From Dehalococcoidia bacterium (lineage in GTDB: Bacteria > Chloroflexota > Dehalococcoidia > Lucifugimonadales > HRBIN23): a stretch of DNA of 38,492 nucleotides. Position 1 is the first letter of the stretch, and each line of letters starts with the position of its first letter. The notes under the pieces were generated by a model. The model made no database searches, was not told where the DNA came from, and saw only the letters and a list, made by a program, of their open reading frames with translations. Positions 99 through 23,392 of the stretch are shown in pieces. The stretch spans positions 1-38,492 of the forward strand of contig JANXCH010000008.1 in assembly GCA_025060295.1 (NCBI GenBank), in the 5' to 3' direction. The position numbers and the translations under genes are program-made.

Positions 99-692
99 AT
101 GGAGGAGCATCGCCATCAGGTTCCGGCTGAGGCGCACGCAGGACGGGCCTTCGCTTGCCCGCGCTGTGGGGCGCGCCTGCGCATCGTCCGGCGACGGGTG
201 GTGCGCAGGCCCCGGGCGGGGGTGGAGGCACCACGATCCCCCGCCCCCGCCCGGGCACCCACCCCTGCGGGGCGGCGGCTGCCTGGGGGTGGGGTCTGGT
301 GGGGAGCCCTCGCCCTGCTGGTGCTGGCTCTGGTGGTGGGGGAGGTGTTCGCCTCCACCGTCCCCTCTGCGCCTCCTGGTGAGCCGGCACCCGCTCTGAC
401 TTACACCGTGGACCGCACCGCCACGGCCCAGTGGGTGACGGCGGGGGCTGGGGCGAGCCTGACCCTCAACGCCAGCGGGCAGGTTACCGCCGTAACCCTG
501 CGGGGCAAGAAGACTACCGACGGCGTCCTGCGGGCGCAGGTGGCTTTGAAGGACACCAAAGGCAATATCCTGGCGACAGGGCGTGGCGTGCTCCCCTCGG
601 ATAGCGGGGACTTCGCCCTGACGGTGGGGATGGAGCCGGCCACCATCCCCTACAGCCGGGTGGCCGAGGTAGCAGTGGCCTACACGAGGTGA
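99..692 (+). CDS. Membrane protein with N-terminal zinc knuckle and extracytoplasmic beta domain
   Basis: A 197-residue protein of unknown function. A CPRCG knuckle near residues 20-24 is followed by an Arg/Pro-rich stretch. A single hydrophobic segment (about 67-86) then leads into a roughly 110-residue domain with alternating hydrophobic residues, typical of a beta sandwich. The outer domain contains NASGQVTAVTLR, and an almost identical NASGQVT block occurs in the next gene, so the two are paralogous in that region. Only one CxxC pair is present, so a complete zinc ribbon would need a partner. The start follows a good ribosome-binding site (GAGGAGG at 83-89). The gene ends 3 bp before the next ATG and heads a run of seven same-strand genes that includes a signal peptidase. 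The expected topology is N-in with the C-terminus outside. Confidence 0.7.
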   Translation: MEEHRHQVPAEAHAGRAFACPRCGARLRIVRRRVVRRPRAGVEAPRSPAPARAPTPAGRRLPGGGVWWGALALLVLALVVGEVFASTVPSAPPGEPAPALTYTVDRTATAQWVTAGAGASLTLNASGQVTAVTLRGKKTTDGVLRAQVALKDTKGNILATGRGVLPSDSGDFALTVGMEPATIPYSRVAEVAVAYTR

Positions 693-695
693 GGG

Positions 696-1091
696 ATGCG
701 GGGCCTTCTGTTCCTAGTCATCGTTCTGTTGGGGGTTCTCCCCTCGGCTATCTATGCCGCCCGTATACCCTCGGCGAGTGCCCAACCGGTAGGGGGCCAA
801 CAGGGGCAGGTGCTGTCGCCGGTGAGCGCGTTCACTGTGGAAGCCATTCCTGCCCAGTTCAACGCATCGGGACAAGTGACCCATTATAAACTGCGCTGGT
901 TCCCTACGGCCGGCACCGGGACCTATCATCTGCAGGTGCTTCTCCTCAACAGCGGGGGGACGATCATCGGTAGCGGTAACCTGAATGTCACGGTTAATAG
1001 CATTGGGAGTTGGCGCACGGATACAGTTCCTCTCAGCAGTCCTGTAACCATCGATAACATTGCGACGGTGCGGGTCAATATCGTGTCGTAG
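696..1091 (+). CDS. Small exported beta-domain protein, paralogue 2
   Basis: A 131-residue protein of unknown function. An N-terminal hydrophobic segment (about residues 3-22) ends in a YAA-type cleavage site. A short linker carrying QPVGG follows, then a beta-rich domain. That domain shares NASGQVT, a LNSGGTIIGSG turn and a C-terminal VRVNI strand with its neighbours. The start lies 3 bp after the previous stop, so translation is probably coupled. Context (a downstream SipW-like peptidase) suggests it is exported and processed; that is inference. It has no cysteine in the mature part, unlike the last two members of the set. Confidence 0.7.
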   Translation: MRGLLFLVIVLLGVLPSAIYAARIPSASAQPVGGQQGQVLSPVSAFTVEAIPAQFNASGQVTHYKLRWFPTAGTGTYHLQVLLLNSGGTIIGSGNLNVTVNSIGSWRTDTVPLSSPVTIDNIATVRVNIVS

Positions 1092-1103
1092 GATCATAAA
1101 GGG

Positions 1104-1586
1104 ATGGGGACGCGGACTCTGATTCGACGGTATGGGGTGCTTTTCCTCCTGCTGGTGGCAGGGGGGCTGGTGGTCTACTCCCTGCGCCCCATCTTTGCGG
1201 CCAGCATGCCTGTCAAAGTGCATCCTTTTATGGGTGCTGGAGCGGACGCCTCCCAGACGCATAGCCCTAACTGGCTCGGTGGATCCCATATCGTCCGCGT
1301 CACGGGTGTGCAGTTGAACTTCTCCGGAAACACTGTGGTATCGGTGACCGTCAGTGGGACGAAGTTGCCCTACTATGGCGGATGCGATGTGACAGTGATG
1401 TCAATGGAGGTAACTCTCCTCAGTTCTGTGGGCACCGTTTTGGGCAGTGGAACAGTTACACTCCCGCCACTAGGGAACACGTTCAACTCGACTGTGACCA
1501 TAAGTGGGGGTGGTGTTCCCTACCACCGCATTGCGCAGGTAGCGGTCTCTTTCCAATCTCAAGATTTTGACTGGTGTTTGATATGA
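1104..1586 (+). CDS. Small exported beta-domain protein, paralogue 3
   Basis: A 160-residue protein of unknown function. A hydrophobic segment (about 12-30) ends in a FAAS cleavage-like site and is followed by HPFMGAGAD, which matches the position of the PVGG linker in its neighbours. The mature part is rich in Val, Thr, Ser and Gly, with alternating hydrophobic residues. It shares a SVGTVLGSG turn and a terminal YHRIAQVAVSF strand with the first member (YSRVAEVAVAY). Two cysteines, one mid-domain (GGCDV) and one near the C-terminus (DWCLI), could form a disulphide outside the cell. It is preceded by an AAAGGG purine run. The next gene starts 7 bp after its stop. Confidence 0.7.
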   Translation: MGTRTLIRRYGVLFLLLVAGGLVVYSLRPIFAASMPVKVHPFMGAGADASQTHSPNWLGGSHIVRVTGVQLNFSGNTVVSVTVSGTKLPYYGGCDVTVMSMEVTLLSSVGTVLGSGTVTLPPLGNTFNSTVTISGGGVPYHRIAQVAVSFQSQDFDWCLI

Positions 1587-1593
1587 CGGGGGT

Positions 1594-1971
1594 ATGGGAC
1601 TCATGGCTAGGGTGCTGATTGGAGGGGTGGTATTCCTTGCTGTGGTGGCCACGGCGGTCTACGCCGCGTCTTTTCTCTCTTTCAATGTCCGGCCGGTCGG
1701 GGGGGGAGCGGGCGATGCGCCTCGCTGTCAGGTGCGGTCTTATTCCATAGCTTCCACAGGGACCATTTCGTCGGTCAATGCTACAGTTCTGTGCACGGCG
1801 GGGGGTGGGTACATCGTGCACACCACTTTTACCTCAGGGTCATCCTCTGGAAATGGCAGCACGCCTGTTACTCTTACTGCTAATACCCCTACGACGGTTA
1901 CCATTTCCATCTCCCCAGCAGTAACTCTCACCTATACCTATAATGTATCCTTTAGGATCGAGAGGCAGTAG
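1594..1971 (+). CDS. Small exported beta-domain protein, paralogue 4
   Basis: A 125-residue protein of unknown function. The hydrophobic N-terminus (about 6-24) ends in VYAA, then comes RPVGGGAGDAP and a Thr/Ser/Gly-rich beta domain. The pattern RCQV-SYS-TG...VLCTAGGGY is matched one gene downstream by PCQV-SYD-TG...VVCSAGGRY, so these two are the closest pair in the set. The two conserved cysteines are candidates for a disulphide. ATG 1594 is used here, but an in-frame ATG at 1603 (M4) is equally possible because neither has a strong ribosome-binding site. Confidence 0.7.
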   Translation: MGLMARVLIGGVVFLAVVATAVYAASFLSFNVRPVGGGAGDAPRCQVRSYSIASTGTISSVNATVLCTAGGGYIVHTTFTSGSSSGNGSTPVTLTANTPTTVTISISPAVTLTYTYNVSFRIERQ

Positions 1972-1981
1972 GAGGGGTGTG

Positions 1982-2356
1982 ATGCGGGGAGTTGTGCTCT
2001 GGCTTGTGATTGGGGGTGTGATGGCGGTGGTGGGCTATAGTGCTTTGGTAGCCACCCGCGCTCAACGGCCGGAGGTGCCTGCTCCCCAACCCGTTGCGGG
2101 CGCACCCTCCCCGTGCCAGGTTACTTCCTACGACCTGTCGCCCACGGGAGCAGCGGTGCAGGCGGTGGTGGTATGCTCGGCTGGGGGGCGCTACCAGGTG
2201 GCGGCGGAGGCGGCGGCCGGCTCCATACAGGCGAAAGGGCACGTGGTCGTGCGTGTCCTCAAGGACGCGCCCACAGCGGTGAGTATCCCCCTGATGCCCT
2301 CCCTGCCCCCCACGGCGCTGACATATAGCGTGCGCTTTACAGTGCGGGGTATGTAA
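1982..2356 (+). CDS. Small exported beta-domain protein, paralogue 5
   Basis: A 124-residue protein of unknown function. ATG 1982 is chosen because a GGAGGGG site (1971-1977) precedes it; the open frame extends further upstream, but only by overlapping the previous gene. A hydrophobic segment (about 4-21), a linker containing QPVAGAP, and a beta domain with two cysteines (PCQVTSYD and VVCSAGG) mark it as the sister of the preceding gene. The last strand, LTYSVRFTV, corresponds to LTYTYNVSF there. The stop is 5 bp before the signal peptidase start, consistent with co-translation. Confidence 0.7.
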   Translation: MRGVVLWLVIGGVMAVVGYSALVATRAQRPEVPAPQPVAGAPSPCQVTSYDLSPTGAAVQAVVVCSAGGRYQVAAEAAAGSIQAKGHVVVRVLKDAPTAVSIPLMPSLPPTALTYSVRFTVRGM

Positions 2357-2361
2357 CGGGC

Positions 2362-3069
2362 ATGCCGCTTTTTCTGCTTCTCGGAGGCCTTCTACTTATG
2401 GCACCCTTCTGGCTCCCTCAGGTGCTGGGAGGACAAGCCATGTATCACTATGTGATCACGGGGTCCATGGCGGGATCTGTGGATCGGGGGAGCCTGGTGA
2501 TGATCTGGCCCGAGGAGAGTTATGCCGTGGGGGATGTGGTGGCCTTCTGGCAAGATTTAGGGTTCCGGCAGATTCCAGTGTTGCATCGCATCATTGATAA
2601 AACCCCCGAAGGGCTGTATGTGATTAAGGGCGATGCGGTGGACAGTGTGGACTATGTGCCTCCGGAGCGCATCATAGGGAGGATGGTGTTCGGGATACCT
2701 TATCTGGGGTTTGTGGGGGGGGCAGCGAAGTTCTTCCCCCTGGTGCTGGCCTATTTCGCATTAGCCCCCTTCCTGGCCGGGCGAAAGGGGAAAGAGGGGA
2801 AGCCCGTTAGTGCGTTTCTGCCCACAGCTGCTTTGGTGCTGGTGTGTATGCCCTTGGCATCGGTGGGAATAGTGCAGGTGGTGGGCAAGACCTTCGCGAT
2901 GGTGCTGATGCTGGCGCTGTTGGGGACGGCGCGCCTCTTGGAGATAGCCTGGGGGAAAGAGTTGGGGCCTTTGACCGAAATTCTCTATGGAACCATAGGT
3001 GTGGCCGCCCTGTCCATGGTGTATATTCCTGAGGTGATTCAACAACTGCGCGGCTTGTTCGCCGCGTAG
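2362..3069 (+). CDS. SipW-like signal peptidase I (S26B type)
   Basis: A 235-residue membrane peptidase expected to cleave signal peptides outside the membrane. An N-terminal membrane anchor (about 2-22) is followed by TGSM with the nucleophile Ser35. The motif VLHRII places His75 where ordinary bacterial SPase I has the catalytic lysine, and KGDAVD (Asp91, Asp94) follows. This Ser/His/Asp arrangement is characteristic of the archaeal, eukaryotic and SipW branch of the family. The C-terminal half adds about three or four more hydrophobic segments (roughly 128-145, 155-200, 208-225). It sits between five small exported proteins and a large repeat protein. In Bacillus, SipW sits beside and processes the biofilm proteins TasA and TapA, so a dedicated role on neighbouring substrates is plausible inference. 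Confidence 0.85.
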   Translation: MPLFLLLGGLLLMAPFWLPQVLGGQAMYHYVITGSMAGSVDRGSLVMIWPEESYAVGDVVAFWQDLGFRQIPVLHRIIDKTPEGLYVIKGDAVDSVDYVPPERIIGRMVFGIPYLGFVGGAAKFFPLVLAYFALAPFLAGRKGKEGKPVSAFLPTAALVLVCMPLASVGIVQVVGKTFAMVLMLALLGTARLLEIAWGKELGPLTEILYGTIGVAALSMVYIPEVIQQLRGLFAA

Positions 3070-3082
3070 CGGGAGCAGTGCG

Positions 3083-5854
3083 ATGCGCTGGATAGCGTGG
3101 CCCCTGGTGGGCGTTCTGGTGTGGCTTGTGTTCATCCCGCGGGTGTGGGCCCAGGGGCCCATATCCCGTGTGCAGACAAGCCATTCTGTGCCCCTCATCG
3201 TAGACGGCCTACGCCAGACGGGTTTCCCCCGCGACCTGCCCATGGGCACCCAGGTGTGCGCCCCGGGGGAGTTCTTGTATACTGCTGAAGGGGAGCGCTA
3301 CCGCTTCCGCGGGTGGCGCTTGCACGCCTCCCTCCTGCCCTCCCTCTGTATCCTGGCCATAGACCCTGGCCCCTATGTTGCTGTGTTCCAGCGGGAGGTG
3401 TTGGTGCGGGTCACCTCCACCGCCCCGGGCCTGGCCCAGGCCCGCTGGGTGGAGGAGGGGAGCCTCCTCACCTTCACCGCCCCCGAGATTATCCCCATCA
3501 GTGATGACCAGAGGTGGCGTTTCACTGGCTGGTCGGGGGGTATCACCCCCTTCAGCGCCGAGAATACCATTGTGGCCGACCGCCCGGTAACTGTGGAGGC
3601 GCGCTACGTTCTAGAGTATCGGGTGCAGGTGGTGGCCCCCGAGGGAGTGGCGATAACGGGAGGGGGGTGGGTCGTCGCTGGTCAAACGGCCGTGATCCGC
3701 GCTCCCGCAACAGTCTCCCAGGGGCCGGGCCAGCGCCTGCGCCTGGTGGGTTGGGATGGCGAAGGGGTCGCTGGCGAGGCTCTAGCCGGAGGGCGCACCG
3801 TCCTCACTTTCCCCGTCAGTGGCCCTGTGTTCTTACACCCCCGCTATGTGCAGGAGTTTCTGGTCGAGGGGTATGGTCTGCGGGGGGTGCGCCTCGTGCA
3901 GACCTGGGCGGCGGCGGGGACGGTAGTGAGCCTCACCGCCCCCGAGGAGGTGCTCGTTGAGGAGGGCGTCCGCTGGCGCTTCGTGGAGTGGTCGGGGGGT
4001 ATGGAACCCACTAAGCCCACCACCCGCGTGGTGGTCAGCCGTCCCATGACCCTCAACGCCCGTTACACCCAGGAGATTCTGGTGCGGGTGCTCGCCCCCG
4101 AAGGGGTGAGTGTGCCCGGGGCTGGCTGGTATGCCCCAGGGCAGACCGCTACCCTGCTTCTGCCTACGCTTGTGCCCCAAGGGGACGACCGCCGCTGGCG
4201 TTGGACGGGGTGGGAGGGGGAGCCCCCCGGCACCGTTCAGGGACCTGTGGTAACCCTGCGGGTGGACGCCCCTGTGACGGTGCGCCCCCGCTACACCCTG
4301 GAGGTCCTGGTGGAGGCCCAGACGCCCCAGGGCGTTCTGCGGGAGTGGCGTCCCGTCGGTTCCCTGATCACTCTGGAGACACCCCCTACTGCCGATGGGT
4401 TGCCCCTGCGCTTCTGGCGGGTGCGGGATACCGGCGAGGTGCTGGGGAGTAGCCCCCGTCTGGAAGTCCAGGTAACCGGCCCCCTGCGCCTGCAAGCCGT
4501 CTATGATCCGCCCCGCCCACCCGGAACCATCACCCTGCAGGCCACTGCGCCTGTCCCTCTTACGGTGGACGGGCAGGAGGTGAAGGCCTATCCTGCCACA
4601 GCCCCCGCAGGGAGCAGGGTGTGCGTCCCCGGCCCCTACATCTATACAGAGGAGGGGGAGCGCTACCGGTTCCTGCGGTGGAGCACCGGGAGTCAGGAGA
4701 CCTGCATCACCCCTCCTGCAGGAGCCCTCACCGCTCTCTTTGAGCGGGAGGTTCTTTTGACCCTTACCTCCCCTCTGCCCCAACTGGGGGAAAGCCGCTG
4801 GGTTCCGGCCAACCAGCCTATCCCTGTGGAAGTGCCTGCGGAGGTGCGCACCGAGGAGGTGCGGTGGCGCTTCGCCGGCTGGTCTAGCGGGGAGAGGCCT
4901 TTTAGCCCCTCCAACATCCTCGTCCTCACCAAGCCCCTCACAGTGGAGGTGCGGTTTGTGCCCGAATACCGCATTCACATCATCCCTGTGGAGGGGGTAA
5001 CGGTGAGTGGGGAGGGATGGTATACGGCGGGGGCCAGGGCTCTGGTGCGCGCCCCAGCCCTCGTCCCCCAAGGCGAGGGGCGACGCTTGCGTTTCGTGGA
5101 GTGGGAGGAGAGGGAGGGAAGACTAGCGGGCACCGGCCCCCTCCAACAGCCCGAGATCGTTCTGACTGTGAGCGGCCCTGTCTCCCTGCGCCCGAGGTAT
5201 GTGCAGGAGTATCGGGTGCACGCCGAGAACCCCCAGGGTATCCTCACCATGACTTGGGTGGAGGCCGGCAAGACGCTGGAACTGGAGACCGCATCCCTCA
5301 TCACCATCGTGGAGGACGAGGAGCGCCTACGCTTCTCCCATTGGCAGGAGAAACGGCCTGGCGCCCAACCTATGGCCCAGGTGTCTAAACTCATCCTCAC
5401 TGTGGACCGCCCGCTGGACCTGGAGGCGGTGTATCGGCGGGAGTTCAGGGTTACCCTTCAGGCCCCCTACGGGGGGAGTGGTGCGGGCTGGTATCCCGAG
5501 AATGCGACCGCCATTATCAGCGTCCCGCCCCAGCCCCAGGCGGTGCTGTTTTTGAAGAAGTCCTTCCAGGGCTTCGCCGGCTACCCCCAGACGGGGCCAG
5601 TGCTCCAGGTCACGGTGCAGGGGCCCACCACCGTCGCCGCCCTGTACAGCAACGAGGTGGACTTCCGGGTTCTGGCCTTCCTGGTGGCGGGTCTCCTGGC
5701 GGCTTTCCTCATCTGGCGGATCACCGAGAGCCGCACGGCGCGTCCCCAGCCTAGCCCCGCTTCTGCCCAGGAGGAGGAGGTTATCGAGGAGGTCGTGGAG
5801 GAGGAGCCACAGCCCCCCATCGTTACGGGGCGACGCCCGCCGGGGGAGCGATGA
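3083..5854 (+). CDS. Large surface protein of InlB-like beta repeats with C-terminal anchor
   Basis: A 923-residue protein. It has a signal peptide (about 4-23, ending VWAQ), eleven repeat units of 70-80 residues, one membrane helix (about 863-880) and a cytoplasmic tail with an EEEVIEEVVEEE acidic run. Each unit follows the plan of an introductory strand, G-W or RW, a Val/Leu-rich strand, RWRF-GW-G, a second strand and ARY or PRY, which matches the divergent InlB B-repeat type of extracellular adhesin domain. The units form two ordered arrays (28-474 and 481-858). The opening unit of each array carries two cysteines (C59/C89 and C514/C541). The protein is probably displayed outside the membrane as a rod. 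It is the last gene of the operon and starts 13 bp after the peptidase. Ligand and function are unknown. Confidence 0.8.
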   Translation: MRWIAWPLVGVLVWLVFIPRVWAQGPISRVQTSHSVPLIVDGLRQTGFPRDLPMGTQVCAPGEFLYTAEGERYRFRGWRLHASLLPSLCILAIDPGPYVAVFQREVLVRVTSTAPGLAQARWVEEGSLLTFTAPEIIPISDDQRWRFTGWSGGITPFSAENTIVADRPVTVEARYVLEYRVQVVAPEGVAITGGGWVVAGQTAVIRAPATVSQGPGQRLRLVGWDGEGVAGEALAGGRTVLTFPVSGPVFLHPRYVQEFLVEGYGLRGVRLVQTWAAAGTVVSLTAPEEVLVEEGVRWRFVEWSGGMEPTKPTTRVVVSRPMTLNARYTQEILVRVLAPEGVSVPGAGWYAPGQTATLLLPTLVPQGDDRRWRWTGWEGEPPGTVQGPVVTLRVDAPVTVRPRYTLEVLVEAQTPQGVLREWRPVGSLITLETPPTADGLPLRFWRVRDTGEVLGSSPRLEVQVTGPLRLQAVYDPPRPPGTITLQATAPVPLTVDGQEVKAYPATAPAGSRVCVPGPYIYTEEGERYRFLRWSTGSQETCITPPAGALTALFEREVLLTLTSPLPQLGESRWVPANQPIPVEVPAEVRTEEVRWRFAGWSSGERPFSPSNILVLTKPLTVEVRFVPEYRIHIIPVEGVTVSGEGWYTAGARALVRAPALVPQGEGRRLRFVEWEEREGRLAGTGPLQQPEIVLTVSGPVSLRPRYVQEYRVHAENPQGILTMTWVEAGKTLELETASLITIVEDEERLRFSHWQEKRPGAQPMAQVSKLILTVDRPLDLEAVYRREFRVTLQAPYGGSGAGWYPENATAIISVPPQPQAVLFLKKSFQGFAGYPQTGPVLQVTVQGPTTVAALYSNEVDFRVLAFLVAGLLAAFLIWRITESRTARPQPSPASAQEEEVIEEVVEEEPQPPIVTGRRPPGER
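3164..4504 (+). repeat. First array of beta-repeat units (six units)
   Basis: Residues 28-474 of the surface protein. Unit boundaries by eye are 28-104, 105-178, 179-258, 259-331, 332-406 and 407-474. The opening unit contains VPLIVDG, VCAPG and EGERYRF. The later units carry WRFTGWSGG or close variants. Confidence 0.7.
4523..5656 (+). repeat. Second array of beta-repeat units (five units), copy of the first
   Basis: Residues 481-858 of the surface protein, with units at about 481-555, 556-628, 629-709, 710-786 and 787-858. They match units 1-5 of the first array in order: the opening unit again has VPLTVDG, VCVPG and EGERYRF, and the third has EGVTVSGEGW against EGVAITGGGW. This points to duplication of a multi-unit block rather than of single units. 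Confidence 0.65.
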
Positions 5855-5870: not shown

Positions 5871-6680
5871 TTAGGGGGACAGGGCTTGGCGGAGGCGGAT
5901 GTGTAGGGCGGGCGGGGCTACCAGCAGGCCCCCCTCCACCACGGGGATGCCTCCCTCCCCCCTGCACCACGGTCCCCCGTTCAGGGCGGTAACCTGTAGG
6001 CCCGCCTCCTGTGCGATGAGGGCCGGAGCGATGTCCCACGGGGCGGCACGCCGGTAGAGAAAAACCAGTCCCGACCGCCGCCCTGCTGCTGTCCATGCCA
6101 AGTCCAGGGCGTCGCTATAGGTGGTGGAGAGGTGCCGGGTAAGGTCCAGAAGACGCGTCACCGCCTGGCCGACCTGGGCCGGTTCCACATCAGGCCACTG
6201 GTTGAAGGCCAGGCGTATGCCCAGCCCAGGGCTGTAGCGGAAGGGCTGGCCGTTGAAGAAGGCTCCCCCTCCACGCCGGGCTTCCCACATCTCCCCTAAA
6301 GCAGGTGCGTAGAAGGCGACCGCTTCCCAACGCCCTTCACTCCACAGGGCCGCCGTTGTCCCGAATAGGGGCACCCCCCGGGAAAAGTTATCTGTCCCCT
6401 CCAGGGGATCCACGCACACCAAAAGCCCCGGCATATACCCCAGGGGGATGGGTTTGCCCCCGGGGGTCTCCTCCGCTAGGAAAGCCTCCCCCAGGCGATA
6501 CCTCTGCACGAGGCGCAGGGCCATCTCTTGAGCCTGGTGGTCGGCCTCCAGAGCGACGTCGTTGTCCCCCTTTATCTCCACCACTCGGGTGCCTGCTCCC
6601 CTGCGGAACTGCTCCAGAAGGAACGCCCCCACCTCCCGGACGATGGCGCGCAGGATCGTTAGGAGGGGGTCAGCGCCCAT
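5871..6680 (-). CDS. Inositol monophosphatase family phosphatase
   Basis: A 269-residue enzyme of the Mg-dependent inositol monophosphatase/HisN/CysQ superfamily. It has KGDNDVALEAD (37-47), a AEE acidic pair (69-71), DPLEGTDNFSRG (91-102) and the C-terminal PWDIAPALIAQEAG motif carrying the last metal-binding Asp. The usual second motif is DPLDGT or DPIDGT; here the second acidic ligand is Glu94 instead of Asp. The start at 6680 has a GGAG site and overlaps the end of the DUF2851 gene by 22 bp, so the two are probably cotranscribed. The open frame extends upstream, but that part has no family similarity. Substrate is not decidable by eye: inositol phosphate, histidinol phosphate or a nucleotide bisphosphate are options. 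Confidence 0.85.
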   Translation of the reverse strand: MGADPLLTILRAIVREVGAFLLEQFRRGAGTRVVEIKGDNDVALEADHQAQEMALRLVQRYRLGEAFLAEETPGGKPIPLGYMPGLLVCVDPLEGTDNFSRGVPLFGTTAALWSEGRWEAVAFYAPALGEMWEARRGGGAFFNGQPFRYSPGLGIRLAFNQWPDVEPAQVGQAVTRLLDLTRHLSTTYSDALDLAWTAAGRRSGLVFLYRRAAPWDIAPALIAQEAGLQVTALNGGPWCRGEGGIPVVEGGLLVAPPALHIRLRQALSP

Positions 6681-7849
6681 GGGGCTCCTAAACGACGGGC
6701 CCAGGCCAGTAATCCCTGCTGGGCACGGGCGGTGCTCGGTATAGGCATGGGCAAGAGGGCGCGCATGGCCCGGCTCACGGCGTTCTCGGCGGGAGGGGGG
6801 AAGACCTTCCAGCAAGCCCATACTGCTCGGCGCAGGGAGGGGTTGCCCTGAGCTGTCGCCCACGCCCACAGAAAGGGCAGAACCACGCTCACCGCCACCT
6901 CCCGCGCCCGTGAGCGTCCTATCAGGGCTGGCCCGCCCGTGGGGGAGGGGACGGTCAAGACCCGCTCGAGGGCAGAAGGGCCGTTCACAGCGCCCCGCCG
7001 CAGGGCCTGAGGCAGGCCTTCATCCCACCAGCGGGCCACAAGCACGGCCATCCCCCACAGGCGGCGTGCGGGGCGATTCGCCGGGCGCACCCCCGCCCGA
7101 CACCAAGCCTCCGGGGAGAGCACGGGCTGCCAGGGTGTCTCGCGCCACAGACGGACCAAAGGGTCTCCACCCGATAGGAGGCCGGCACTGCCCAGGAGCA
7201 CAGCGGCTAGACGCGTGGCCCGTTCCTGGGGAGTGCAGGGCAGGGCTACCCGTCGTAGGACACGATAGGGCATCCCTTCGGCCAGCTGGCGCATGGGCTC
7301 CCGGTTGGCCCCGTAGCCCATCCCTTCCATGAGGCCCCGATAGAGTGCCTCCTCGACACCCACGGAGACGATGAGACGGGCATAGCCAGATGCCCTCTGC
7401 CGAAAGCGGGCGTCGGCCCAGCGATGCAGAGTCGCCAGGGTGGGGCACGCCCCGACAAAGGGGGGAGCCACCTTTCCTACTTGAAGAAGCGCTCCATCGG
7501 GGAGGTCAACCTGTGGAGGGGAAGGGCGAGGGGAGGGGCTCTTCCCCAAAACCAGGTGCAGGAGCACCTGGCGATAGCGGGGGTCGGCGTGGTGGCCGTG
7601 GGATGCCCACGCATCTGGGGAGCAATGCACCTCCACATCCCCCCGCAGGAGGCGTCCATCCCCCCGAAGGAGCAAGGCGTCCTGGAAGTCTGGGCCGGCC
7701 CCCCGGTTGAGACGCCCCGGGTAGAGTATCCGATACCTATGTCCGTCGCTGGCGGGCAGGAAGCCCCATTCAGGAGCAGTGGTTGCCCACGCCCGCCACA
7801 GGTTCTCCTCTCGCTCAGCGATGACCGGATACCCTTTTTGCTTGGCCAC
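6659..7849 (-). CDS. DUF2851 family protein
   Basis: A 396-residue protein resembling the DUF2851 family, whose function is unknown. Near the N-terminus it has EENLWRAW, then GRLNRGAGPDFQDALL, GDVEVHCSPDAWASHGH and HADPRYRQVLLHLVLG, which is the conserved core of the family. The open frame continues upstream to 8380, but that part lies antisense to the DUF72 gene and looks like shadow. GTG 7849 is preferred because a TATAAT sits at 7861-7856 on this strand. Transcription would then begin at or next to the start codon, giving a leaderless message. It overlaps the downstream phosphatase gene. Confidence 0.7.
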   Translation of the reverse strand: MAKQKGYPVIAEREENLWRAWATTAPEWGFLPASDGHRYRILYPGRLNRGAGPDFQDALLLRGDGRLLRGDVEVHCSPDAWASHGHHADPRYRQVLLHLVLGKSPSPRPSPPQVDLPDGALLQVGKVAPPFVGACPTLATLHRWADARFRQRASGYARLIVSVGVEEALYRGLMEGMGYGANREPMRQLAEGMPYRVLRRVALPCTPQERATRLAAVLLGSAGLLSGGDPLVRLWRETPWQPVLSPEAWCRAGVRPANRPARRLWGMAVLVARWWDEGLPQALRRGAVNGPSALERVLTVPSPTGGPALIGRSRAREVAVSVVLPFLWAWATAQGNPSLRRAVWACWKVFPPPAENAVSRAMRALLPMPIPSTARAQQGLLAWARRLGAPWALTPS

Positions 7850-19692: not shown

Positions 19693-20025
19693 CTAGGCGT
19701 AGGGGCCGAGGTGCATCCCACCCAACACGTGCAGGTGGGCGTGCTCTTGGCTCTGCATGGCATCCCAGCCCACGTTGGAGAGCATCCGATATCCCCCGGG
19801 GCAATAGATACGCCCCATCTCCACGGCCACGCGCCCCACTTGGGCGATGACGCCGTTGCTCCACATCTCCTCTTGGGTCATGTGCTGTTTGGGCACCACC
19901 AGGAGCATCACGGGCGTCCAGCGCAGGATGTTGTCGAAGACGATGACCTGGTCGTCCTCGTAGCGGATGGTGGCGGGCTCTTTGCGGGCGATGATGTCGC
20001 AGAACACACAGCGGCGGGTGCTCAT
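19693..20025 (-). CDS. HIT family nucleotide-binding protein
   Basis: A 110-residue histidine-triad hydrolase or transferase acting on nucleotide phosphoramidates, dinucleoside polyphosphates or similar. CVFCDI (Cys6, Cys9) is the usual zinc half-site, and the triad EHAHLHVLGG places His95, His97 and His99. The ATG overlaps the stop of the preceding AAA+ gene by four bases (20022-20025), so the HIT gene is translationally coupled to the replication operon. Its link to replication is not evident. Confidence 0.88.
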   Translation of the reverse strand: MSTRRCVFCDIIARKEPATIRYEDDQVIVFDNILRWTPVMLLVVPKQHMTQEEMWSNGVIAQVGRVAVEMGRIYCPGGYRMLSNVGWDAMQSQEHAHLHVLGGMHLGPYA

Positions 20026-21404
20026 GGCTCCTTTCCCTTGCGCCGGGTGGCGTCTCGGGAGCGGTCACGGTAGTCGGGGGCGTCCAGGCGAATGTGGGTG
20101 ACCAACCGTTCATCCTTCAAACGGCTGGAGATGGCGTTCCACAACCTTTCGCGGAGGCGTTGCTCCTGCTGCTCCTGCGTCCAGAGGATAGTGATGACGG
20201 TGGGCAGGTGGTGCTCGTGGCGATAGGCGAGAAGTTGATACAGTTTCTCCTCGGCCCAGGGGGTCATGGCCTGGGCGCCGAAGTCATCCAGGATGAGCAG
20301 AGGGAGAGTCTTGAAAGCCTCAAAGCGCCGGTCGTAGCGGTAGGGGTGGTCGGGGGCGAACGACGCCCGCAGGTGGTCTAACAGGTCGGGGGTCTTGATG
20401 ATGCGGGCAGGCCATCCCTTGCGCCGACACTCCTGGTAGATGGCCACGGCCAAGTGGGTCTTCCCTGAACCGCAGGGTCCGCTGAGCACCAGCCATCCGC
20501 TGGGCTTATCGGCAAAGGCCACCGCCGCCCGATAGGCCGCCTGGGTAGAGGGACTGCGCTGGGCGTGAAAGGTGGCGAAGGTCATCCCCTCCCACTCGGC
20601 GGGGAGGGGTTCCCCTGTTTCCCGATGCCAGTCGCCGTGGGCCAGGCGCAGGACACGGCACTTGCCGGGCGTGGTGAGGCGGGTGCGAAGGCGGTCGTCT
20701 ACGTGGTCTAGGGGGGTGGCCAGCACCACCACTGTGGGGAGGTCCTCCCGCCAGCGGGCGTTGAACACCTGGAACAGCTTCTCCTCGGCCCAGGGGGTGG
20801 TGGAGTGGGCACCTAAATCGTCCAGGGCGAGCAGAGGCACCGTGCACACCTGCTCATACAGGGCGTCGTAGGACGCCTCGCTCCACGGGGCGAAGGAGGA
20901 GCGCAGACGATCCAACAGGTCGGGCGTGGAGATATAGAGGGCGACGCGCCCCTGCTCAAGACAGTGGTTGACAATGGCCGCTGCCAGATGGGTCTTGCCG
21001 GAGCCGGAGGGGCCCAGGAGCACCAACCAACCCTGGGGGTGTTGGGCGAAGGCTTGGGCAGCCTCCAGGGCTTGGGCGAACAGGCGCTGGTCGGGGGGGT
21101 AGGGGCTTACCCCTGTGGGGTTGAGGGAGGCGAAGGTGCACCGACGCAGGGCCCCCAGACCGCTCAGGCGCGCCAAACGCGCCGTCTGCTCCTCCTGGGC
21201 ACTGCGCCCTTGACACGACGGGCAGGGGATAACCCGCCCGAAGTCAGGATGGCCGAAGGGCGCCGGGGTCTTGACCCACCCTATGCCCGTGCACAGGGGG
21301 CACCCGTTGGCCCCTTCAGCGGCGGTAGAGGGGTCCGTAGCCCTTCCGCCCTCGGAGGAGGTCGGCGGCGCGATCCGTTTGAGGAGATCTCCCAGGTGCT
21401 CCAT
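20022..21404 (-). CDS. Tandem AAA+ helicase-loader-like ATPase (two DnaC/DnaI-type domains)
   Basis: A 460-residue protein with two complete DnaC/IstB-type AAA+ modules. Module 1 has Walker A GPSGSGKTH (131-139) and Walker B LLALDD (191-196). Module 2 has Walker A GPCGSGKTH (309-317) and Walker B LLILDD (369-374). Each module begins with a CTFASLN- or MTFATFH-type lead and contains TPDLLD-LR-SFAP and TPWAEEKL, so the second arose by internal duplication. Before module 1 are CPLC (35-38) and CPSC (61-64), a plausible zinc site as in DnaI. It lies downstream of dnaB and dnaD, so loading of the DnaB helicase is the likely role. Known loaders usually carry one AAA+ module of about 240-310 residues. 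The ATG at 21404 overlaps the dnaD-like gene by 89 bp. Confidence 0.85.
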   Translation of the reverse strand: MEHLGDLLKRIAPPTSSEGGRATDPSTAAEGANGCPLCTGIGWVKTPAPFGHPDFGRVIPCPSCQGRSAQEEQTARLARLSGLGALRRCTFASLNPTGVSPYPPDQRLFAQALEAAQAFAQHPQGWLVLLGPSGSGKTHLAAAIVNHCLEQGRVALYISTPDLLDRLRSSFAPWSEASYDALYEQVCTVPLLALDDLGAHSTTPWAEEKLFQVFNARWREDLPTVVVLATPLDHVDDRLRTRLTTPGKCRVLRLAHGDWHRETGEPLPAEWEGMTFATFHAQRSPSTQAAYRAAVAFADKPSGWLVLSGPCGSGKTHLAVAIYQECRRKGWPARIIKTPDLLDHLRASFAPDHPYRYDRRFEAFKTLPLLILDDFGAQAMTPWAEEKLYQLLAYRHEHHLPTVITILWTQEQQEQRLRERLWNAISSRLKDERLVTHIRLDAPDYRDRSRDATRRKGKEP

Positions 21405-22014
21405 GCTCTCCCTTGCCTTCCCGTGCCCATCGCCGCAGGATGGCCTCTACATACCCCCAGGAACGGCGATTGTGGCGCACCGCCTCCTGGATGGCCTCAG
21501 CTATCCACTGGGGAGGGTAGGTGGCCTCGGCGTCTTTGAGCATATCGGCCACCAAAGGGGTCAGCACCCCGATGTTCTCCTCGTAGAGCCGATAGATGTT
21601 GGAGGGGGGAGGAGGCTCCAGAGGCGGGGGGGTGGAAGAGGCCACGTCCCCTTGCCCTGCCGCCAGGCGCTGGGCCGCCGCCCGCCCCTGGGGGGTGTTC
21701 AAAAGGAACAGGCGCTCCCGCCTGCCGTCCTTTTCCACCTCCACTACTGTCAACACTCCCCGGCGGACGCATGCCTGCAAAGCACGTTCCAGGGCTTGTG
21801 CGTCTCCCCCCAGGGCGCGGGCAAGGGGCAAGTCCCCTGCCAGTTCCGTCAGGCTCACTGCGCGTGTGGGTCCCCGCTTCAGGTGCAAGAGGTGCACAAC
21901 GCGCAGGAGGGTCTTCAGTTCTGCCAGGTCGTCTATCTCCTCCAGAAGGGGGCCGAAGAGGGGGCTCGGCACAGGGGTATAGGTGCACCGAGCCGGGAAG
22001 CCGTCAAAGGGCAT
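21316..22014 (-). CDS. dnaD: DnaD-domain replication initiation protein
   Basis: A 232-residue protein. The N-terminal half (about 20-115) looks like a winged helix (LKTLLRVVHLLHL...CVRRGVLTVVEV). After a Pro-rich linker comes the DnaD/DnaB C-terminal type domain NIYRLYEENIGVLTPLVADML...SWGYVEAILRRW (about 135-200). In Firmicutes such proteins work with DnaI at primosome assembly. ATG 22014 has GGAGGG upstream and lies 11 bp inside the dnaB end; the longer frame overlaps dnaB further and lacks similarity. Position between dnaB and the loader supports the role. Confidence 0.8.
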   Translation of the reverse strand: MPFDGFPARCTYTPVPSPLFGPLLEEIDDLAELKTLLRVVHLLHLKRGPTRAVSLTELAGDLPLARALGGDAQALERALQACVRRGVLTVVEVEKDGRRERLFLLNTPQGRAAAQRLAAGQGDVASSTPPPLEPPPPSNIYRLYEENIGVLTPLVADMLKDAEATYPPQWIAEAIQEAVRHNRRSWGYVEAILRRWAREGKGEHGAPGRSPQTDRAADLLRGRKGYGPLYRR

Positions 22015-23392
22015 GCGTGCCCTCCGCAGGGGGAGTGGGTGGCTCCTCAAAGCGGGCGTAGCGGTCGTTGAAGTACAGGTGCACCGAGCCAATGGGGCCG
22101 TGCCGATGCTTGGCCACGATCACCTCGCCGATGTTCTTGGGATAAGGCACCCCCGGATGACGGCGTTCCCATTCCTCTTTGGTGATGTAAAGGTCTTCCC
22201 GGTAGATAAACAGCACCACATCGGCATCCTGCTCGATGCTCCCCGACTCCCGCAGGTCCGACAGTTGGGGGCGATGGGACGGGCGGACCTCTACGGCGCG
22301 GCTCAGTTGGGAGACGGCGATGACAGGGATGTTCAGGTCTCGGGCCAGGGCCTTCAGGGAACGGGAGATTTCGCTAATCTCCTGCACCCGGTTCTCGGCG
22401 CGCCCGTTGCCCGCCTGGGCCAACTGGAGGTAGTCCACGATGGCCAGGTCTAGGCCCCGCTCCAGCTGCAGGCGTTTGGCCTTGGCCCAGATGGCCCGCA
22501 CCGTGGGTTGGGGGGTATCGTCGATGTAAATGGGCAGGTCCGAAAGGCGCCCGATAGCGTCCAGCAGACGGCGCTCCTCCGCCTCGGTATAAAGGCGCAG
22601 GCGCAGGCGATGGCCATCCACGCCCGCCTCGGCGGCCAGCAGGCGCAGGGCAACCTGGTCGGCGCTCATCTCCAGGCTGAAGATGGCCACAGTGGCCCCC
22701 AGGTGCTTGGCGTTGTGGAGGGCGATGTTCAGGGCCAGGGCCGACTTGCCCAAACTGGGACGCGCCGCCAAGATGATGAGGTCGGAGCGTTGCAGGCCCC
22801 CCAGGATGTGGTCTAGGCCGCTGAAGCCTGTGGCCAAAGGCCCCGCTCCCCTTTCTGAAGGACGGGGGACAGCGACGGCGGTGCTCTCCTCCAGGAAGCG
22901 GTCCAGCAACTGGCGCAGGTGCAGCAGCCCCCGCAGGGGACGCCCCGTGCGGATGCGGAAGATGAGGTCTTCGGCGCGGGAGAGGGCAGTATCGGTATCG
23001 GGGGGGGCCTCATAGCCCAGGCTGGCGATGTCGAGGCCTGCCTTGATGAGAGCGCGATAGGTGGACAGGCGGGACACAATGCGGGCGTAGTGCTCGGCGT
23101 GCACCGAGGTGGGGGTGCTGGCGATGATTGTAGCCAGGTAGCCATTGCCCCCGATGTCCTCCAACTTGCCCATGCGGGCCAGTTCGTGGGCCACCGTCAC
23201 CTGGTTGACGGCCTCCCCCCGCTGGGAGAGGGCCAGGCAGGCCTCGTAGACGGCGCGGGGTTTTCCCCCGTAGAAGTCTTCCGGGCGCAGGAGGGGAGCG
23301 ACCTTCAGCAGGGTGTCGGGGTCTATGAGGATGCTTCCGATAACCGCTTCCTCAGCTTGGAGGTCATGCGGGGGCAGTTTCTCCGTGAACAT
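22004..23392 (-). CDS. dnaB: Replicative DNA helicase DnaB
   Basis: A 462-residue hexameric 5'-3' helicase. The N-terminal DnaB domain starts LPPHDLQAEEAVIGSILID. The RecA-like domain has Walker A ARPSLGKSA (210-218), where GRPSMGKT is commoner, Walker B LAIVDYLQL, and the VSQLSRAVEVR and GSIEQDADVVLFIYR motifs. Length is normal and no intein is present. Its start lies 29 bp inside the end of rplI, an overlap that suggests coupled expression. Confidence 0.95.
   Translation of the reverse strand: MFTEKLPPHDLQAEEAVIGSILIDPDTLLKVAPLLRPEDFYGGKPRAVYEACLALSQRGEAVNQVTVAHELARMGKLEDIGGNGYLATIIASTPTSVHAEHYARIVSRLSTYRALIKAGLDIASLGYEAPPDTDTALSRAEDLIFRIRTGRPLRGLLHLRQLLDRFLEESTAVAVPRPSERGAGPLATGFSGLDHILGGLQRSDLIILAARPSLGKSALALNIALHNAKHLGATVAIFSLEMSADQVALRLLAAEAGVDGHRLRLRLYTEAEERRLLDAIGRLSDLPIYIDDTPQPTVRAIWAKAKRLQLERGLDLAIVDYLQLAQAGNGRAENRVQEISEISRSLKALARDLNIPVIAVSQLSRAVEVRPSHRPQLSDLRESGSIEQDADVVLFIYREDLYITKEEWERRHPGVPYPKNIGEVIVAKHRHGPIGSVHLYFNDRYARFEEPPTPPAEGTHAL

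Follow-up and report, generated by a model that had tools for sequence, protein, structure and literature searches.

A SipW-type signal peptidase encoded with a family of small exported beta proteins in Chloroflexota

A Chloroflexota operon was found to encode six paralogous small exported beta proteins (the SP family) beside a signal peptidase of the SipW type, and the pairing of SP genes with such a peptidase recurs in nine genomes. We see an even chance that the operon makes a surface structure of SP proteins that are matured by this peptidase of its own. Judged from sequence, the substrate family appears to be new and unrelated to TasA, whereas the S26B family of the peptidase is already known. 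An independently evolved system had been proposed in the initial annotation; this description suits the substrates and not the peptidase, which branches within the known S26B/SipW family.

Organization of the operon

The window analysed here is the whole of contig C8 (38,492 bp), from a genome of 1.61 Mb that is 95.7% complete. Seven closely spaced, co-directional genes had been annotated, and all seven open reading frames were confirmed on a single strand, with stop-to-start gaps of 3-13 bases. The set is not complete, since an eighth gene (SP0) is cut by the contig edge. The features are as follows.

1-51, +, 3' end of SP0, the eighth operon gene, cut by the left contig edge; the frame reads EPLQITCTKVNFDPAN followed by a stop
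99-692, +, CxxC-TM-beta protein with a cytoplasmic HxH/CPRC segment, a TM segment and an exported SP-family domain (family alignment, HMM match)
696-1091, +, SP1, small exported beta protein, predicted site IYA↓ARI (AlphaFold)
1104-1586, +, SP2, small exported beta protein (homologues in HRbin23, G206 and G083)
1594-1971, +, SP3, small exported beta protein with a conserved Cys pair (AlphaFold, Cys covariation)
1982-2356, +, SP4, small exported beta protein (family alignment, profile match)
2362-3069, +, SipW/S26B-type signal peptidase, Ser35/His75, with extra C-terminal TM segments (TIGR02228, E 4e-12)
3083-5854, +, surface repeat protein with two InlB-B-like units of ~440 aa, a signal peptide, a C-terminal TM segment and an acidic tail
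5871-6869, -, convergent gene 3' of the operon

All small proteins of the operon can be aligned as a single family, and the exported half of the CxxC-TM protein aligns with them. SP0 and this exported half thus join SP1-SP4, and the operon encodes six paralogues, where four (SP1-SP4, all present) had been counted previously. The first complete gene had been read as encoding a zinc-knuckle membrane protein. Its product is a membrane protein, but carries a single CxxC (CPRC), preceded by a conserved HxH and followed by the TM segment, and its exported half is of the SP family. No Rfam elements were found within the window. Elsewhere in the window, the gene at 20022-21404 (-) encodes a 460-aa protein that, on reading the sequence, comprises two tandem IstB/DnaC-like ATPase halves with two SGxxGSGKTHLA-like motifs. 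It lies close to a DnaB-like helicase gene (22004-23392), and its product resembles a helicase loader that has been duplicated and fused.

The sole other genome of the window's genus that was found (G001) is HRbin23, 'Bacterium HR23' (contig C128, BEHZ01000128). The next relatives carrying the cassette are named Chloroflexi MAGs and, to judge by its relatives, the Chloroflexota host is perhaps a thermophile. In HRbin23 the operon runs SP0, CxxC-TM protein, SP1, SP2, SP3, SP4, peptidase and the start of the repeat protein (MRWIAWPL...), and is preceded by a divergent flavin-reductase-like gene. Its SP0 homologue is complete, a small beta protein in the equivalent position (locus L010, 3098-3496, -). 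Between the two species the CxxC-TM protein is 83% identical (pN/pS 0.27) and the peptidase 76% (pN/pS 0.25), and SP1-SP3 are merely 37-44% identical (pN/pS 0.58-0.69). The operon goes beyond chance, because gene order and reading frames are kept in HRbin23 with pN/pS of 0.25-0.69. SP1-SP3 appear to be constrained yet fast-evolving, and surface proteins often evolve fast. The full-length repeat protein as query gave no match in HRbin23, because the contig there stops ~50 bases into the gene. Short direct repeats, variants of ACCTTGACC / ATCTTGACC, stand in a row 5' of the first operon gene in HRbin23, at about 3766-3690 of L010 (-), and are possibly a regulator-binding array; the counterpart of this region falls beyond the window's edge.

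The exported protein family

A profile of the SP family recovers each member and little else. Taken singly, SP proteins had no match above threshold in Pfam, NCBIfam or PHROGs, and the family profile had no significant match among solved structures (best E 0.066, to glucanases). The AlphaFold models of mature SP1 (15 sequences, pLDDT 80, pTM 0.67) and mature SP3 (10 sequences, pLDDT 84, pTM 0.69) each contain six strands, in residues 28-109 and 21-100, respectively. The N-terminal tail is unstructured in both (pLDDT average about 40-60); these are models of monomers, in which strand donation cannot show. The nearest folds are Ig/FnIII-type domains with Z up to 8, values of a size usual for small beta sandwiches that indicate the fold type alone. 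Foldseek with the SP models returned nothing at E 0.001.

Conservation is concentrated near the N terminus. In a 20-sequence alignment, positions 21-42, which hold the cleavage site and the tail, contain 7 of the 10 most conserved columns (hypergeometric p 0.0004). Conserved here are the cleavage site (A↓A), the third position past the cut, which is hydrophobic, and the motif [LVI]-G-x-[GA]-x(3)-V, terminating at Cys or Pro. By eye from the alignment, most sites in the window and HRbin23 have Tyr or Phe at P2 (IYA↓A, VYA↓A, AYA↓A), and the majority of SP proteins of the genus combine an aromatic P2 with Ala at P1/P1', as in TasA. The SP cysteines covary as a pair (p 0.0004); as they appear and vanish together, they argue for an oxidising, exported location.

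The signal peptidase

The annotation of a Ser/His peptidase of the SipW type was borne out, the Ser35/His75 pair being invariant in eight relatives, together with M36, R76, G90 and D91. The features of the S26B/SipW type are present, with a Ser/His pair instead of Ser/Lys and a conserved GD box (G90-D91); the pair is that of the ER/archaeal type. The TIGR02228 score of 46.3 bits is just below the cut-off of 51.85, which the peptidases of G083 and G614 exceed, and the score against the Bacillus SipW equivalog NF046067 is 35.5 bits, below its cut-off of 190. The enzyme is the genome's sole match of the SipW type at E 1e-5. Two other signal peptidases, of the P type, are encoded elsewhere in the genome; the one checked proved to be a bacterial Ser/Lys enzyme. 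Since the genome has no PF12389 protein and has two ordinary signal peptidases elsewhere, the operon peptidase is plausibly dedicated to its neighbours, a reading that is well supported by the sequence comparisons. It probably cuts the SP proteins at the conserved YA↓A-like site.

A maximum-likelihood tree was built from 28 peptidases, including nine SP-linked and 14 TasA-linked sequences. The two groups are split by one branch (support 86/87, below the starred level), so that their apparent separation is not strongly supported, and none of 500 label shuffles was as clustered as the observed tree. The four peptidases from the window's order form a clade (support 100/99). Against the cassette profile, the nine SP-adjacent peptidases all reach E 5e-51 or better, and the peptidases of the TasA loci of the class, where there are no SP genes, reach E 1e-7 to 1e-22. 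One peptidase branch travels with the unnamed SP family across Chloroflexota lineages and another with TasA in the same phylum. This contrast offers a natural comparison of a dedicated peptidase tracking its substrates.

Distribution of the cassette

The SP profile was searched against genomes at three ranks, 250 from the order, 393 from the class and 400 from the phylum. Cassettes were called with the SP profile, the peptidase profile and a script marking SP, peptidase, TasA and repeat ORFs in each fetched locus; the G933 peptidase, missed by the ORF caller, was recovered by profile search. Nine cassettes with neighbouring SP and peptidase genes were identified (window, HRbin23, G206, G083, G363, G614, G683, G839 and G933), at one place per genome and with the SP genes within about 3 kb of the peptidase. 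Within the window's order they occur in three families; one further family of the class has them too, as does at least one more class of the phylum. The order SP...SP-peptidase-repeat is seen in the window, HRbin23 (repeat gene cut), G206 and G083, from three families of the order. The order SP-SP-CBM96-peptidase is seen in G614, G683, G839 and G933, and the partner protein of G839 matches PF24517 (CBM96) at E 8e-18. In G363 there are three SP genes, and one of them is fused to an RTX-like repeat. Because the large partner protein is exchangeable among cassettes, the core consists of SP and peptidase genes. Of the neighbourhood that the initial annotation had suggested seeking in related genomes, it is this pair that recurs in nine, the repeat protein being kept in three families only.

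SP genes are also found alone. Both species of the genus have a lone SP gene outside the operon and without an adjacent peptidase (window genome, C23:31753-32139, locus L041 9723-10205; HRbin23, C52, locus L042 2106-2558). Isolated SP genes occur in G210 and G211, and two in G305; no peptidase of the SipW type was found in these three genomes at E 1e-5.

Two loci of other composition were observed. L115 (G363:C1:133000-137298) encodes another SipW-type peptidase and an RTX-like repeat protein, together with two small exported proteins whose sequences start AASNVVPGTRAGDGAG. The small proteins escape the SP profile, and therefore further substrate families probably exist. L113 (G417:C23:72000-81000) is a TasA cluster, with three TasA-family genes between two SipW-type peptidases; a repeat protein homologous to that of the window is encoded apart from it, on contig C1 of G417. 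In the literature, no paper was found treating SipW in Chloroflexota, and none on HRbin23.

The repeat protein and the CxxC-TM protein

The 923-aa repeat protein scores 24.5 bits against PF18998 (divergent InlB B-repeat), narrowly above the cut-off of 23.6, and its 449-aa relative in G083 has no match to PF18998 at E 0.01. A unit of ~440 aa, present once in relatives, is duplicated in tandem in this protein, and an N-terminal conserved Cys pair recurs in both halves. The units of G206 and G083 are 29-41% identical and match it in operon position. The protein had been annotated as a surface protein with an acidic tail; both are present in the window, but the tail is missing from the relatives. 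G417 and G030 have homologues without SP or peptidase neighbours, and in both genomes the next gene encodes a CBM96 or CBM96-like protein. Weak matches in other families of the class were set aside, as they look like generic InlB-like repeats. The giant adhesin can no longer be regarded as a constant part of the system, since relatives occur without the peptidase and cassettes without the adhesin. On these comparisons the repeat adhesin is an optional partner, not part of the core. The CxxC-TM protein is a possible membrane-anchored or base subunit; the roles given to it and to the repeat protein are guesses from topology.

Proposed assembly

We suggest that the operon makes a cell-surface structure from small Sec-exported beta-sandwich proteins. 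The SP proteins would be matured by the operon's own SipW-type (Ser/His) signal peptidase, and cleavage would free a conserved N-terminal tail of 15-25 residues. The tail might then pair with the incomplete sandwich of the next subunit to give a head-to-tail polymer, as in TasA or archaeal threads. By analogy with these systems, the case for polymerisation driven by strand donation from the freed tail is evenly poised. A fibre is a reasonable guess because the tail is conserved yet has no place in the monomer, as in strand-donating subunits. Part of the tail conservation is the cleavage site itself. The Ig/FnIII fold is common, also in soluble domains, which counts against a fibre, and SP genes isolated from any peptidase count against the explanation as a whole.

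It is possible, though somewhat short of an even chance, that Chloroflexota have here a new self-assembling surface fibre, with Ig/FnIII-like, non-TasA subunits and its own SipW-type branch, that evolved in parallel to the TasA of their relatives. Only tentatively can the parts be assigned, with the paralogues as major and minor subunits, the CxxC-TM protein as a membrane-bound base and the repeat protein as an anchoring adhesin. The SP family is a candidate for surface filaments in uncultured Chloroflexota.

Alternative explanations

The SP proteins could be very divergent TasA/CalY proteins and the operon an ordinary TasA-SipW system. Their signal peptide and cleavage-site layout is similar to that of TasA, and of 245 genomes of the class, 30 encode TasA (PF12389) proteins. 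However, the view of the initial annotation that these neighbours have no recognisable TasA sequence was upheld. The PF12389 profile matched no SP protein, and no PF12389 protein was found in the window genome at E 1e-4. With hhalign, the SP family aligned with 14 TasA-locus sequences of the class over 19 signal-peptide columns only (probability 44%; 9% when forced global), and the positive control, the split halves of the SP family, reached 98.4%. The predicted SP fold, an Ig/FnIII-like sandwich of about 80 residues, may also speak against TasA. In the structure search with the SP models TasA, BsaA and pilins lay outside the best matches, a result that excludes none of them. We consider a disguised TasA system very improbable.

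Nor is it likely, if a little less remote, that the peptidase serves as a second signal peptidase of general scope and lies in an envelope operon by chance, its neighbours being processed by ordinary Ser/Lys enzymes. Such enzymes are at hand in the two P-type peptidases of the window genome, and orphan SP genes occur in genomes without a SipW-type match; against this, the SP and peptidase pairing is kept in nine neighbourhoods and the substrate family predicts the peptidase subtype. A stronger competitor, which we still hold to be unlikely, accepts the SP proteins as dedicated SipW-type substrates but makes them monomers or a surface coat, that is, carbohydrate-binding or envelope-decorating domains instead of fibre subunits. 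The usual partner in distant relatives is a CBM96 (PF24517) protein instead of the repeat adhesin, an SP2-like domain in G305 is fused in frame (by eye) to a CBM96-like segment, and a porphyran-binding CBM is among the best fold matches of the SP models, as are Ig/FnIII domains from GH2/GH3 enzymes. A coat would leave unexplained both the conserved tail, unstructured in the monomer, and the expansion to six paralogues.

Comparison with known systems

Most of what is known about SipW-type peptidases concerns two sets of substrates, TasA/TapA in Bacillus and BsaA in Clostridium. TasA fibres of the Bacillus subtilis tapA-sipW-tasA operon assemble by a donor strand (PMC9674648, PMC10151520), which comprises residues 28-38, directly behind the signal peptide (PMC9674648). 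The ordinary E. coli enzyme (LepB) is blocked at the TasA site TWA↓AF, mainly by the P2 Trp (PMC10269814). The operon described here resembles tapA-sipW-tasA in that a Ser/His peptidase is encoded next to small exported beta proteins, which have an aromatic P2, Ala at P1/P1' and an N-terminal tail past the cleavage site. By contrast, the SP proteins are not PF12389 proteins, are about half the size and number six paralogues, and SP cassettes bring an InlB-type repeat or CBM96 protein in place of TapA.

In C. perfringens, secretion and polymerisation of BsaA need SipW, and the properties of BsaA are unlike those of TasA (PMC7395162). It would thus not be without precedent for a SipW enzyme to have one more substrate family. 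The sipW-bsaABC system shares with ours a SipW enzyme with a non-TasA-like substrate, for which polymers were shown, but it is found in a different phylum and has regulatory genes within the operon.

The window's repeat protein is like PF18998 surface proteins in narrowly passing their cut-off. It differs in that its relatives measure only 435-450 aa, share a conserved Cys pair, have a distinctive membrane-proximal unit and are found also without SipW or SP genes.

Sec-exported beta sandwiches also form archaeal threads, in which the N-terminal tail serves as donor strand (Saci_0406; PMC9715654), and, as far as cited in PMC9674648, the bundling pili of Pyrobaculum. The threads differ in being archaeal, glycosylated and isopeptide-linked, and no homology was seen between them and the SP proteins; the likeness lies in the export route and the sandwich, and would extend to the strand donated by an N-terminal tail.
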